A stretch of 36,849 bases of DNA from Candidatus Parcubacteria bacterium (GTDB taxonomy: Bacteria > Patescibacteriota > Patescibacteriia > Magasanikbacterales > UBA922): positions 1-36,849 of the forward strand of contig JABGUG010000032.1 in assembly GCA_018646705.1 (NCBI GenBank), given 5' to 3'. The translations under genes were made by a program, and so were the position numbers. Positions 9,188 through 36,849 of this stretch are shown here, piece by piece. The notes under the pieces were generated by a model, which searched no databases, was not told the origin of the DNA, and worked only from the letters and a program-made list of their open reading frames with translations. Each line of letters opens with the position of its first letter. Positions within the stretch are counted from its first letter, which is position 1.

Positions 9188-9241
9188 AATAGGTATATTT
9201 TAGCAAAATTAAAGACCTGAAGCAAGGTTTAAACAATAAAT

Positions 9242-9270
9242 TTGACATAAAATCTTTATTACTTTATATT
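9242..9270 (+). promoter_or_regulatory. Sigma70-type promoter
   Basis: TTGACA (9242-9247), 17-nt spacer, TATATT (9265-9270). Confidence 0.8.
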
Positions 9271-9276
9271 TATGCC

Positions 9277-9518
9277 ATACCATGGAGGTCCGCCGCCTCC
9301 ACGGTATAGAGCCCTTCGAGGCTCCCCGGCCGTCCAGACGTCCTTCCAAAAATGCCGCTAGGGGCTGCGATTTATGGGGTCGACGCCTCTAAAACGCCTG
9401 GTAGGCCGGGTCTTTCTCTCTTTTTTGAGGGACTTAGGAGTTAGGGTGTGTGTATGGCGGTTACCACACACCCTTGACCCAAAATCAAAACACCCAGTCT
9501 CACGACCGGGTGTTTTTT
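9277..9518 (+). ncRNA. Candidate standalone structured ncRNA, family not recognised
   Basis: Promoter upstream; predicted +1 falls at a 5' hairpin (ATACCaTGGAGG/CCTCCAcGGTAT). Further hairpins: GAGCC/GGCTC, CCCGGCC/GGCCGGG, GGGTGTGTG/CACACACCC. Ends at a terminator; no convincing ORF. Confidence 0.7.
9487..9518 (+). terminator. Intrinsic terminator of the candidate ncRNA
   Basis: AAAACACCC-agtctcacgacc-GGGTGTTTTTT. Confidence 0.8.
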
Positions 9519-9541
9519 ATTGTATAAATAAGGCTTAATAG

Positions 9542-23511: not shown

Positions 23512-24294
23512 CTAACTAAATAATTTCATTATTTGTGGATGTAATAATTTGTTTGATGCGACAATATCTTGTCTTCCTCGTTGCCATTCATTCCCATCAC
23601 TGTCAGTTACGATTCCTCCAGCTTCTCGAACGATTAAGGCTGGTGCCAAATAATCATGATCAAGCCCAGCGTTTTGTACACACAAATCAATTCCGCCTGC
23701 AGCCATATGACACATTGATAACATAGTACCAAACTGATGAATCCATATGTTTGTATCTCGGTTCATTCTATCAAGAAAATGTTTATATTCCTCAATATGA
23801 GAACCGTATACTTCCCCTTTGTTTGGCATACGAGAAAAATTACCAATAGCCATATCAAAATCATTTTTCTCTCCAATTTTTATTGGCATTCCGTTTACTG
23901 TTGCACCGTGTCCATATTCTGCAAAAAATAATTGATTTCCAACAGGATTATACACCGCACCAAGTATTGTCTCACCATTTTGCACAAACGCAATAATAAT
24001 GCACCACATTGGTATACCTACTGCAAAATTTCTTGTCCCATCAATCGGATCAATCACCCATTCATATTCTGCACCAGGATTGATTGATTCTTCAAGCTCC
24101 TCACTCGTTATACCATGGTCTGGATATTCCTTATGGATTGCATTAACCAAAAATTCACTTGTTTTTATATCTGCTTCTGTCAAAAGATCAGCCAAGTGAC
24201 TTTTTACCTCAAAAGAAACGCCTTTTTCAAAATAGTCCTTTGCTAGCTCCCCTGCTTCTAAAATTGTCTCTTTCAAAAAATCTTTCATATACAT
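23512..24294 (-). CDS. Inositol monophosphatase family protein
   Basis: EADIKTSEFLVNAI, ITSEEL, WVIDPIDGTRNFAVGIPMWC, AGLDHDYLAPALIVREAGG. Confidence 0.92.
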   Translation of the reverse strand: MYMKDFLKETILEAGELAKDYFEKGVSFEVKSHLADLLTEADIKTSEFLVNAIHKEYPDHGITSEELEESINPGAEYEWVIDPIDGTRNFAVGIPMWCIIIAFVQNGETILGAVYNPVGNQLFFAEYGHGATVNGMPIKIGEKNDFDMAIGNFSRMPNKGEVYGSHIEEYKHFLDRMNRDTNIWIHQFGTMLSMCHMAAGGIDLCVQNAGLDHDYLAPALIVREAGGIVTDSDGNEWQRGRQDIVASNKLLHPQIMKLFS

Positions 24295-24345: not shown

Positions 24346-24374
24346 TTGACTTTTTAGTCTATATAGTGTAGTAT
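24346..24374 (+). promoter_or_regulatory. Promoter of GC-rich cassette A
   Basis: TTGACT (24346-24351), 17-nt spacer, TAGTAT (24369-24374). Confidence 0.7.
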
Positions 24375-24404
24375 ATTGCGGAATCGATTTTAAAGAGGTG
24401 CGCG

Positions 24405-24590
24405 ATGAGCGCGTTGATTTCCCGTTCGATCGAGAAGCTAGGCACGTTCGGAAATTCGATGACCGATCTCTCGGTCTTGCTGCGAGGTGCGCTCCACGAG
24501 AACCCCCTCGTTGACCAGCTGATCATGGGCCCAGTCGAGGGCCTTCGTGTCGCCAGAGATCTCATTACCTCTAGGCGACGGGCAATGTAG
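24405..24590 (+). CDS. Small GC-rich ORF of cassette A (61 aa), unknown function
   Basis: Preceded by AAAGAGGTG-like RBS; high-GC third positions; promoter upstream and terminator downstream. Confidence 0.65.
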   Translation: MSALISRSIEKLGTFGNSMTDLSVLLRGALHENPLVDQLIMGPVEGLRVARDLITSRRRAM

Positions 24591-24672
24591 GCCCAACAAG
24601 CGCTCTACATGGGCGCATAGACCAAAAGGAGCGTCGAACGACACGGCACACATAAACGCCTTGTTCGACAAG

Positions 24673-24757
24673 GCGACGTCAGTCCAAGTAAGCGAATGCT
24701 TCAGACAGACGTCGCTCACTTGGTTTAGTATATTTACAAAATATATTGAATCAAAAA
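24673..24757 (+). repeat. Structured 3' tail of cassette A, shared with cassette B
   Basis: Stem GCGACGTCaGTC/GACaGACGTCGC, then TCACTTGGTTTAGTATATTTACAAAATATATTGAATCAAAAA. Confidence 0.8.
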
Positions 24758-24797
24758 CAGTAGAGAAGTAATATATTGCGTCTCTACTGTTTTTTTA
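24756..24797 (+). terminator. Terminator of cassette A
   Basis: AACAGTAGAGA-agtaatatattgcg-TCTCTACTGTT followed by T run. Confidence 0.85.
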
Positions 24798-24826
24798 TTG
24801 ACTTCTTGTCATACTCAGTGTAATGT
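24798..24826 (+). promoter_or_regulatory. Promoter of GC-rich cassette B
   Basis: TTGACT (24798-24803), 17-nt spacer ending CAGTG, TAATGT (24821-24826); resembles the cassette A promoter. Confidence 0.65.
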
Positions 24827-24854
24827 TTTATATGAATCCACCCAATAGAGACGC

Positions 24855-25040
24855 GTGATGCGCAGGAAAGAAACGCTCATCGAACAGTTCGTCTATTCTC
24901 TGAAGAAACTCGGAGAAACCATGTTCTCGGTCTCGGTTTATGCACTCATCCTGGGTGTCAACCAGATCAGGAACAACACGAACCCCATGGAGCTCCTCAG
25001 GAGCTTCGAACGCAAAGCGGTCAGCTGGGGCGCGTCCTAA
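24855..25040 (+). CDS. Small GC-rich ORF of cassette B (60-61 aa) with a hydrophobic segment
   Basis: MMRRKETLIEQFVYSLKKLGETMFSVSVYALILGVNQIRNN...; GC-rich third positions; start could be 24858. Confidence 0.6.
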   Translation: MMRRKETLIEQFVYSLKKLGETMFSVSVYALILGVNQIRNNTNPMELLRSFERKAVSWGAS

Positions 25041-25109
25041 CGGCGAAGACGAGCGGCAAGAAAGCCGCATACTACAGGAGATGCTGGACGACGCTCGTCG
25101 TTCCGGCAG

Positions 25110-25195
25110 GCGACATTTACCCGAGTGGAAGCGAAAGGCAAAGGTAAATGTCGCTCACTTGGTTTAGTGTATTTACACAAATATATTGAATCAAA
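25110..25195 (+). repeat. Structured 3' tail of cassette B, shared with cassette A
   Basis: Stem GCGACATTTACC/GGTAAATGTCGC, then TCACTTGGTTTAGTGTATTTACACAAATATATTGAATCAAAAA. Confidence 0.8.
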
Positions 25196-25197
25196 AA

Positions 25198-25226
25198 AAC
25201 AACCTACTAATTAGCAGGTTGTTTTT
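25198..25226 (+). terminator. Terminator of cassette B
   Basis: AACAACCT-actaattagc-AGGTTGTT followed by T run. Confidence 0.8.
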
Positions 25227-25234
25227 AATTATTT

Positions 25235-25425: not shown

Positions 25426-26658
25426 TTAATTTAATATTTTCTTTATCCCTTCACCTACACGCTCAATAGCTTTTACAAAAGCTGCAGTGCGCATGTCTAT
25501 ATTATACTTTTCTTTAGTATCCCACACCTCATTAAAAGAATCTACCATTATTTTTTCTAATCTTTCTAATATATCTTCTTCACTCCAATGCTCACCTTTT
25601 ACATTTTGATCCCATTCAAAATATGAAACAGTAACACCACCAGCATTTGCGAGAACATCTGGTACCACCACAATTCCTTTTTCTTTCAAGATTTCATCTG
25701 CTTCTGGTGTTGTTGGACCATTGGCAAGTTCCACAATAGCTTTTGCTTTTATATTATTTGCATTGTCTTTTGTAATAACATTTTCAAGAGCAGCAGGAAC
25801 AAGAATGTCAACATCTAATTCAAGAATTTCTTCATTAGTAATTTCTTCAGCCCCTTCAAAACCTACTACAGATTTTGTTTCTTTTTTAAAAGCTTCAAGT
25901 TTTTCAATATCTAAATTATTTCCTTTTATAGCGCCTTTGGAATCACTCACAGCTACAACATTATATCCCTTTTCGCTTAAAATTTTTGCCATGAAGCTTC
26001 CTGCATTTCCAAAACCTTGGATTGCAACTTTTGTATCAGCTGGGGTCATATTCATCTTACCTGCAAGCTCAAGCACACAGTACACTCCACCCTGTGCAGT
26101 AGAATAACCACGAACTTCTGAACCACCATCTTCAATTGGTTTACCAGTAATAACACCTGGATCATCATATCCAACTAATTTTTCATATTCATTGCGCATC
26201 CAAGACATTATTTGAGGTGTTGTATACACATCTGGTGCTGGCACATCTTTGTCAGATCCAATATTTCTCCAAACTTTTTGTACATATCCGCGTGAAAGTC
26301 TTTCAATCTCCCCTTCGCTCATTTCTTTTGGATTCACAATTACTCCACCCTTACCACCACCCATAGGTATATTTACTGTCGCACACTTTACCATCATCCA
26401 AAAAGACAATGCTTTTACTTCATCAAGTGAAACATTCCAATGATAACGAATACCCCCTTTGTAAGGCCCGAGTGTATTGTTATATTGGCTTCTGTAACCA
26501 GTAAACACTTTTACTTCTCCATTATCCATTTTGATTGGGATTGAAACTGTAAGAACACGCTCTGGTTGCTTTAGAATTTCATGAACATCCTTTTCAAGAT
26601 TCATAATCTTGGCAGCTTTATCTAGCTGAGACATGGCATTTTCAAATGGATTACTCAT
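25426..26658 (-). CDS. gdhA: Glutamate dehydrogenase (Glu/Leu/Phe/Val dehydrogenase family)
   Basis: YNNTLGPYKGGIRYHWNVSLDEVKALSFWMMVKCATVNIPMGGGKGGV; VAIQGFGNAGSFMAK. Confidence 0.94.
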   Translation of the reverse strand: MSNPFENAMSQLDKAAKIMNLEKDVHEILKQPERVLTVSIPIKMDNGEVKVFTGYRSQYNNTLGPYKGGIRYHWNVSLDEVKALSFWMMVKCATVNIPMGGGKGGVIVNPKEMSEGEIERLSRGYVQKVWRNIGSDKDVPAPDVYTTPQIMSWMRNEYEKLVGYDDPGVITGKPIEDGGSEVRGYSTAQGGVYCVLELAGKMNMTPADTKVAIQGFGNAGSFMAKILSEKGYNVVAVSDSKGAIKGNNLDIEKLEAFKKETKSVVGFEGAEEITNEEILELDVDILVPAALENVITKDNANNIKAKAIVELANGPTTPEADEILKEKGIVVVPDVLANAGGVTVSYFEWDQNVKGEHWSEEDILERLEKIMVDSFNEVWDTKEKYNIDMRTAAFVKAIERVGEGIKKILN

Positions 26659-34842: not shown

Positions 34843-34988
34843 ATATAACTTAGTTATTTATTGCCTATAATTATATCACTGTGACCGTAAAGTACGCAAG
34901 GCTTAAATATACAATATCCTGTGTATTAAAACACACAGATATGGTATATTTTATATGAGGTTTAACTGGCTCGAAAAGGAGGTGAAAT

Positions 34989-35222
34989 ATGAGCCAGCAC
35001 TACAGAAGAGGTTACCCCCGCGACCTAGCAGCAAGTGCGGGAAAAGTGTTCGCTCGGGAGCAGCCTGGACACGTAGTCGGCTATTCAACCGACCCTGCCA
35101 CCGGAATACGGACACTCCACATCATGCAGGATCTCTCTTGCGGACTGGGCACGGTGCTCAGGCTCAAAGAAGACGATCCACAGCTTCGGTGCGTGCGTTC
35201 CGCGACGCTTGCGGCGCGATAG
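34989..35222 (+). CDS. GC-rich small ORF of island C (77 aa), unknown function
   Basis: AAAAGGAGGTGAAAT RBS before ATG; GC-rich codons; MSQHYRRGYPRDLAASAGKVFAREQPGHVVGYSTDPATGIRTLHIMQDL.... Confidence 0.65.
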   Translation: MSQHYRRGYPRDLAASAGKVFAREQPGHVVGYSTDPATGIRTLHIMQDLSCGLGTVLRLKEDDPQLRCVRSATLAAR

Positions 35223-35247
35223 CGCGTCCGAAAAAAAGGAGGCCGTA

Positions 35248-35358
35248 ATGGCCAACCTGGTTTTGACGCCACGATACGGATCGGGCGTCAAATTCTATAT
35301 TACAAGTAAAAAGTTTATAAAGTTTTTAAAAAACTTTTTTAACTTTATCAACTTTTGA
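35248..35358 (+). CDS. Possible second ORF of island C (36 aa)
   Basis: AAAAAAAGGAGGCCGTA-ATG; MANLVLTPRYGSGVKF... runs into the AT-rich repeat. Confidence 0.35.
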   Translation: MANLVLTPRYGSGVKFYITSKKFIKFLKNFFNFINF

Positions 35359-36243: not shown

Positions 36244-36314
36244 ATGAATCTATTGTATCATATTTATGTGCGAACATACGAACATTACAAATATACTGAA
36301 TTTTGAGGATGGAT

Positions 36315-36347
36315 AAAATAAAAAAATTGGGAATAACCCAAACTTTT
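36315..36347 (-). terminator. Terminator of minus-strand GC-rich island D
   Basis: TTGGG-aataa-CCCAA with flanking A/T runs. Confidence 0.65.
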
Positions 36348-36396
36348 TCTTTCCCGACCAACCCCGAGGTCCAGAAGGACGTCGGGGTCGGCCGGA

Positions 36397-36540
36397 TCAA
36401 ACATGCAGCAGACTCCTCAGCCGCCGCACGCGAAGGATGATGTACTCGGTGCCCATGCAGGCGCCGATGGCCAGAAGGCAGAAACCTTGGACAAAGACGT
36501 CAGCCGGGCCGTCGGGAGAGAACAAGTGTTGGTCGAGCAC
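36397..36540 (-). CDS. Small GC-rich ORF of island D (47 aa, GTG start), putative single-TM peptide
   Basis: Reverse strand AAAGGAG-cgtcgac-GTG; VLDQHLFSPDGPADVFVQGFCLLAIGACMGTEYIILRVRRLRSLLHV*; not in the ORF track. Confidence 0.5.
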   Translation of the reverse strand: MLDQHLFSPDGPADVFVQGFCLLAIGACMGTEYIILRVRRLRSLLHV

Positions 36541-36574
36541 GTCGACGCTCCTTTCCTCTCGTGGTGTTATAATT

Positions 36575-36603
36575 ACTATACTCTGAGTAAACTATTTTTA
36601 CAA
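36575..36603 (-). promoter_or_regulatory. Promoter of island D
   Basis: Reverse strand TTGTAA, 17-nt spacer, TATAGT. Confidence 0.55.
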
Positions 36604-36693
36604 ACAAAAAAAGCCCTTTAAAAAAGCTTTTCCTTTCGCCACCTCGTCCTGCAGAGATCCGCGGGACGAGGCGACTTGTTGTGGCACACGACC

Positions 36694-36849
36694 TCACACG
36701 CGCTGGTGCACGAGCTCGGCCGTGGTCTTGGAGGTGAGGACCAAGCCAATGCCCATAAGGCTGACGAATCTCACGGTCTCGACCGCCTCACGCGTAAGCT
36801 TGGCCGAACGCTTGACCACGATCGCGGACATGAACGCCAGCGTCAGCCC
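36694..36849 (-). CDS. C-terminal part of a small GC-rich ORF (island F) cut by the window edge, putative TM segment
   Basis: Reverse strand ...GLTLAFMSAIVVKRSAKLTREAVETVRFVSLMGIGLVLTSKTTAELVHQRV*, followed by hairpin CCTCGTCC/GGACGAGG and a T-rich terminator. Confidence 0.5.
   Translation of the reverse strand, partial: GLTLAFMSAIVVKRSAKLTREAVETVRFVSLMGIGLVLTSKTTAELVHQRV

Follow-up and report, generated by a model that had tools for sequence, protein, structure and literature searches.

Tandem GC-rich mini-genes between suhB-like and gdhA-like genes of a Candidatus Parcubacteria bacterium: probable members of a scattered class of self-contained units

Integron gene cassettes are promoterless and are served by a common promoter; they are associated with an integron integrase and carry a 3' attC site with RYYYAAC / GTTRRRY cores. 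In type I toxin-antitoxin systems, the toxin is a small, hydrophobic, membrane-active peptide whose translation is blocked by an antisense RNA. A deviant GC content of bacterial genes is usually taken as a record of their history, viz. recent import. The morons of temperate phages are independently transcribed accessory genes (PMC6469090).

The GC-rich units described here come from a stretch of DNA of 36,849 nucleotides (hereafter, the window), which consists of positions 1-36,849 of the Candidatus Parcubacteria bacterium contig JABGUG010000032.1 (contig GC 36.6%; the genome is labelled G000), and they have been compared mainly with G001, Candidatus Parcubacteria bacterium BM521, of the same genus. 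As in integron gene cassettes, a short ORF is combined with a structured 3' element, and units with differing ORFs and similar ends stand in tandem arrays; unlike integron cassettes, the units are individually provided with a promoter-like site and a terminator, and the tails are locus-specific. Reading the window and the C42/C50 tails by eye revealed no attC core sites (RYYYAAC / GTTRRRY), and the best score for an integron integrase in G000 (TIGR02249; cut-off 265) was 94.9 bits, a sub-cut-off level that was likewise reached in 14 of 14 control genomes. Short ORFs, folded mRNAs and tandem paralogous units are likewise found in type I toxin-antitoxin loci of the hok/sok, ldr/rdl and ibs/sib kind, but in our units an antisense RNA is merely hinted at, the payloads are too varied, and the products of units 1 and 2 do not clearly span a membrane. 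Phage morons agree with the units in having their own promoter, ORF and terminator between unrelated genes, a deviant composition, an accessory orphan payload, and a pattern of presence and absence among relatives. The units differ from morons in that they lie on a bacterial chromosome among housekeeping-type neighbours (suhB-like and gdhA-like), where neither a phage gene nor a viral homolog was detected, in that their deviant composition is kept over long divergence, and in their folded 3' block and their fixed sites with changing payloads. The titles, abstracts and term counts of the open-access literature yielded no earlier account of units of this kind from Patescibacteria.

Two tandem units are located between a suhB-like gene (23512-24294, minus strand) and, beyond a small ORF of 61 codons on the minus strand, a gdhA-like gene (25426-26658, also minus strand). 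Both are read on the plus strand and have the same order of parts, viz. a TTGACT-N17 promoter, a GC-rich ORF, a folded GC-rich 3' UTR, a tail of ~48 nt, and an intrinsic terminator; all of the parts listed in an earlier note on this DNA (promoters, ORFs of ~60 codons, GC-rich stems, near-identical tails, and terminators) are present in the window. Local GC peaks at 0.58-0.62 in the units vs. 0.28-0.40 in their flanks, and it falls abruptly at the AT-rich promoter and tail adjoining the GC-rich body. Unit 1 begins with the promoter TTGACT-N17-TAGTAT (24346-24374; recognized in the sequence and by a promoter scan, and conserved in G001), followed by an ORF of 61 aa with the Shine-Dalgarno sequence AGAGG and a GC3 of 0.70-0.71 (24405-24590). 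Its 3' UTR contains the hairpin Pa (GTCGAAC...GTTCGAC; 24633-24671), an equivalent of which is placed alike in unit 2 and in both G001 units, and a stem GCGACGTC/GACGTCGC with a probable pseudoknot between CCAAGT (24684-24689) and ACTTGG (24718-24723), the whole element spanning 24673-24723. The tail (24711-24757) includes an AT hairpin (24722-24751) and is succeeded at about 24757-24796 by the intrinsic terminator CAGTAGAGA...TCTCTACTG with its T run. In unit 2 the promoter TTGACT-N17-TAATGT (24798-24826; found in the sequence and by a pattern scan) precedes an ORF of 60 aa from its ATG with a GC3 of 0.75-0.77 (24858-25040), a folded 3' UTR (25083-25163) comprising hairpin Pa and a stem GCGACATTTAC/GTAAATGTCGC whose loop CCGAGT would pair with ACTTGG, a tail with an AT hairpin (25150-25196), and the intrinsic terminator CAACCTACTAATTAGCAGGTTG with a T run (about 25199-25230). 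The promoter lies at -59/-60 relative to the start codon in unit 1, unit 2, and unit 1 of G001. The ORFs differ greatly, as had been noted earlier: the similarity of the two proteins barely exceeds that of shuffled sequence (p = 0.04), a value by which homology between them is suggested.

The tails of units 1 and 2 match at ~46 of 48 aligned positions, which is far above chance. Their final 30 bases form the AT hairpin, of about 13-14 pairs, and their first part closes the stem, the loop of which carries a motif (CCAAGT, CCAGGT, CCGAGT, CCAAGG...) complementary to an invariant ACTTGG immediately 3' of the stem. Four sequences were compared (units 1 and 2 and the orthologous units of G001). Pairing amounts to 95% in the stem, where three pairs are altered on both sides, and to 91.7% in the pseudoknot helix, where the changes are of the G-U type, one control being only partly exceeded; an H-type pseudoknot in the 3' UTR is thus probable, and no more than probable because just four sequences stand behind it. 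The 3' UTRs fold well below dinucleotide shuffles (z = -9.3, -7.8, and -9.2). The ORFs show little or no folding beyond that expected from their composition, apart from a weak excess in unit 2, which counts against an RNA function of their GC bias.

The idea that the tail of ~45 nt marks a dispersed family did not hold. A covariance-model search of 46 family genomes led to the suhB-gdhA locus alone, in G000 and G001, and outside this locus of two species the exact tail pattern was absent from all GTDB r220 species genomes and from IMG/VR. A second tandem pair (C42:3051-4180) has its own shared tail, which is different and equally local. Since the tail is confined to one locus and the C42 pair has a different one, the likeliest reason for its presence in both units is an old tandem duplication at this locus, from which units 1 and 2 would have arisen. 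The possibility raised beforehand, of a local duplication without a wider family, is most likely right in its first half and wrong in its second, as a wider class does exist by architecture and GC. Two sets of candidates were rejected: what looked like a third copy of the tail, at C45:44529, is a chance match within a glycosyltransferase gene, which a GC-rich unit happens to adjoin, and weak covariance-model matches in other genera (E 0.07-0.8) were unconvincing, the best one falling in a coding gene.

Units 1 and 2 are found at the same place in G001, where they are separated by a contig break, and the G001 locus adds a third unit, absent from G000, which encodes a 46-aa hydrophobic peptide and has a degenerate tail. 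The unit proteins are clearly homologous to their G001 counterparts, with 54% identity for unit 1 and 67% for unit 2 (67-68%, E 4e-22), and they evolve faster than the products of suhB and gdhA, which are 83% and 93% identical. Differences per codon position 1/2/3 are 0.36/0.29/0.51 for unit 1 and 0.25/0.12/0.39 for unit 2, and three ortholog pairs pooled give 48/40/78 changes. Because this third-position excess is what translated frames predict, the ORFs of units 1 and 2 are, on the comparison of the two genomes, real translated genes. Among the 46 family genomes the unit proteins rise above noise in G000 and G001 alone; the small payloads have no credible relatives in Pfam, PHROGs, NCBIfam, PADLOC or PDB; viral contigs queried with both unit proteins and two tails gave no match; and no unit reaches the gathering score of an Rfam family.

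A scan of 362 kb of sampled stretches of G000, with tRNAs masked, has identified 17 islands of like size and GC, corresponding to ~5 units per 100 kb; as composition was the criterion for calling them, it may be that a few represent ncRNAs or contain spurious ORFs. Their usual plan is a Shine-Dalgarno sequence, a short ORF, and a GC-rich stem ahead of a terminator, and nearly all of the ORFs are orphans. Payload GC3 is 0.42-0.90, mostly 0.6-0.8, vs. 0.245 +/- 0.050 in 252 ordinary ORFs. TTGAC-type promoters precede 9 of 19 cassette first ORFs vs. 9 of 132 ordinary genes (p = 3e-5), a count which varies with the choice of first ORFs, and 9 of 28 listed payloads pass the hydropathy threshold for a membrane segment. 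Within the window, a unit of the same plan at 34915-35310 (plus strand) has a folded 3' end and a 77-aa ORF (34989-35222) with a syntenic G001 ortholog at 71% aa identity, while 36280-36849 (minus strand) contains two GC-rich units with ORFs of 47 aa (36397-36540) and 45 aa (36694-36831) and is truncated by the contig end. Similar GC-rich genes are present in some further genera of this family (G003, G020, G021, and G022); within the 60 kb examined of the single-contig genome G028, no GC-rich units were seen. A dispersed cassette class, if defined by architecture and GC rather than by the tail, is thus upheld, with same-plan units at many loci and differing payloads.

Nine sites were compared between G000 and G001, and the payload is kept at two and partly kept at one; at four the ORFs of the two genomes are unrelated, and the remaining two are empty in G001. 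It is kept at suhB-gdhA, where G001 has its extra unit, and at 34989. At C42/C50 the first ORF (Cys-rich, 49% identity) and the 3' tail are kept and the ORFs in between are unrelated. Conservation at C45:43430/C31 covers the promoter region (83%) and the 3' hairpins (78%) but not the ORFs, which have 106 vs. 35 codons and a non-significant similarity, and at C48/C37 a TTGACA/T-N17-TATTCT promoter stands at -116/-118 in both genomes before unrelated ORFs. The sites C15:36300/C12 (window 36280-36849) and C32:10700/C41 are also kept with unrelated ORFs, and G001 is without a counterpart of C32:9100 (C32/C41) and of the C45:48875 enzyme (C45/C31). The promoter and/or the 3' end is accordingly conserved around different ORFs at three sites (C42/C50, C45/C31, and C48/C37). 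The unrelated ORFs at kept sites and ends bear out the idea of variable payloads within constant ends, though not as a family defined by its tail. These payload differences may reflect true replacement rather than extreme divergence, the two being not fully separable in a comparison of two species, and we infer the former; whatever mobility and function the units may have is likewise something that we infer.

The high GC of the units has persisted. In three ortholog pairs, 53%, 62%, and 35% of 4-fold sites differ between the species (39-52% in neighbours), and 4-fold-site GC is 0.59-0.76 in both species vs. 0.17-0.28 in neighbours. A GC-rich CDP-alcohol phosphatidyltransferase gene (Pfam E 4e-12) adjoins an AT-rich gene sharing its motif, and its homolog in another genus, at 31% identity, has a GC3 of 0.78 against a background of 0.36 and lies beside a matching AT-rich gene. 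Because GC is still high after 35-62% divergence at 4-fold sites and in a syntenic homolog of 31% identity, it is, as judged from these comparisons, maintained and not a result of recent import. The codon bias of highly expressed genes is ruled out as the cause, as translation genes, which are presumed to be highly expressed, have an ordinary GC3 of 0.23-0.27. The rise in GC spans the ORF and the 3' UTR and leaves out the promoter, AT hairpin, and terminator, and selection on the transcript is preferred for this reason.

These observations are in our judgement best explained, with reasonable though by no means firm confidence, if units 1 and 2 are members of a class of mini-genes, scattered in a genus of Parcubacteria, which are autonomous and insulated in composition, are subject to selection at the RNA level, and occupy fixed sites with changing ORFs. 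Each unit would constitute a full expression cassette, with a sigma-70-type promoter, a Shine-Dalgarno sequence, a short ORF that is in most cases an orphan, a folded 3' end, and an intrinsic terminator, and would lie among ordinary genes at a constant position in the chromosome. This position would be passed on vertically, as would the promoter and 3' fold in several cases, while the ORF would evolve very fast, be gained and lost, or be swapped. The promoter, AT hairpin, and terminator would track the AT-rich genome and the transcript body would remain GC-rich, most likely through selection at the RNA level; high GC together with the pseudoknot-like 3' block may render a single short mRNA compact, 3'-protected, and long-lived. 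The product may be a small accessory protein, often a membrane or exported one. A more far-reaching proposal, viz. that in some Parcubacteria the transcribed part of these genes is held at ~55-65% GC in a 36% GC genome by RNA selection and that the sites are slots for renewing small envelope or exported proteins in a cassette system unlike integrons or phage cargo, is tentative and on balance rather unlikely to hold in full.

The main alternative to RNA selection is recurrent exchange of payloads with a pool of GC-rich genes, or GC-biased gene conversion at recombination-prone sites, either of which would keep GC high with no selection on the RNA. We regard this as fairly improbable. The unrelated ORFs at sites with conserved ends are what such processes would leave, and contig breaks are over-represented within GC-rich islands (4 of the 31 contig starts in G000, p = 0.002; the starts of C4, C11, C12, and C19 and the end of C15 in G000, and the starts of C12 and C57 in G001), which strain variation or poor coverage would produce. 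However, no GC-rich source turned up in the searched collections, gene conversion would be expected to raise GC in the flanking promoter and terminator too, where it instead drops sharply, and the 34989 unit and the GC-rich enzyme appear to be vertically inherited.

Recent import of GC-rich genes, whether as phage morons, plasmid cargo or host DNA, with adaptation to the AT-rich genome still to come, would account for the deviant GC, the orphan ORFs, each unit's own promoter and terminator, and the presence/absence between sister species. This explanation is improbable and is already largely contradicted by the 4-fold-site divergence between two species that are both GC-rich at the units, by the synteny of the GC-rich enzyme across genera, by the lack of relatives in viral contigs or PHROGs, and by the sharp boundary between AT-rich promoter or tail and GC-rich body.

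It is very improbable that the units are structured non-coding RNAs with spurious ORFs, for although the 3' folding is strong (z to -9.3), the GC-rich bodies stand in an AT-rich genome without protein homologs, and two islands (9241-9525 and C45:40081) have no convincing ORF, the codon-position pattern of the three ortholog pairs, the identical start, stop, and frame in G001, the good Shine-Dalgarno sites, the ordinary folding of the ORFs, and the absence of an Rfam match above threshold all speak against it. Equally remote is a type I toxin-antitoxin system with a small peptide toxin, a folded mRNA, and an antisense RNA starting in the tail: the tandem small ORFs with folded mRNAs, a minus-strand promoter-like TTGATT-N16-TATACT in the unit 1 tail, comparable hexamers readable in the tails of unit 2 and of unit 1 in G001, and the strong hydrophobic segment encoded by several other units fit it, but the maximum 19-residue hydropathy is 0.74 (unit 1) and 1.09 (unit 2), under the membrane-helix threshold of 1.6, the promoter scan gave 4 promoter-like sites vs. 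1.4 +/- 1.1 expected, so that a single extra site is weak evidence, a good -35 is missing in G001 unit 2, and other payloads are soluble or an enzyme.

If the units are confirmed as mini-genes kept GC-rich by selection on their transcripts, gene-level GC can be strongly selected in a small-genome bacterium, which by analogy with cultured relatives is probably host-dependent. Composition alone could then serve to find small accessory proteins that are otherwise hidden in uncultured Patescibacteria, perhaps the ones which meet hosts or rivals. The tiny genes of this class have kept their deviant GC over long divergence; their sites are fixed and their regulatory ends are in several places conserved, but their contents change fast. 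Such genes would be misassigned by compositional import detectors.

Several other features of these regions were observed. The window's 9241-9525 island (plus strand) has a promoter-like start and a terminator, no convincing ORF, and no Rfam match, and is possibly an undescribed ncRNA. A GC-rich element at L087:81-400 (G000 C45:40081-40400) and one at L132:800-1031 (the end of C31 in G001) are alike by eye (AAGTRCCGCACAAGCGTCACAAC...); the former, searched in L087, has no Rfam match and no convincing ORF, and looks like a structured ncRNA. Window positions 35230-35290, in the 3' part of the 34915-35310 unit, are better conserved than its ORF and on the minus strand form a hairpin with a T run (GGCCATTACGGCCTCCTTTTTTT), from which a short antisense RNA is possible. 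The Cys-rich payload of 63 aa (locus D; L070:3070-3261, conserved on the minus strand of L127) has the C-terminal motif C..GGY.CG..C..C.LG, is confined to this genus among 389 class genomes, and could be a metal-binding or modified peptide. Pfam matches are limited to long GC-rich genes, viz. the CDP-alcohol phosphatidyltransferase gene (H) and a longer GC-rich gene of G020 (L100:15541-16239) for a PP2C-type phosphatase; a 247-aa gene of G022 (L102:15515-16258), with GC up to 0.75 within a stretch of 34% GC, has no Pfam match. The numerous BLAST matches in G000 that might be taken for further unit copies are due to the unit 1 terminator, an CAGTAGAGACGC-like palindrome with a T run. This terminator is a repeated element, which recurs on C4, C6, C7, C43, and C48 of G000, and its motif is also present in G001, G024, G022, G025, and G042, including other genera of the family.
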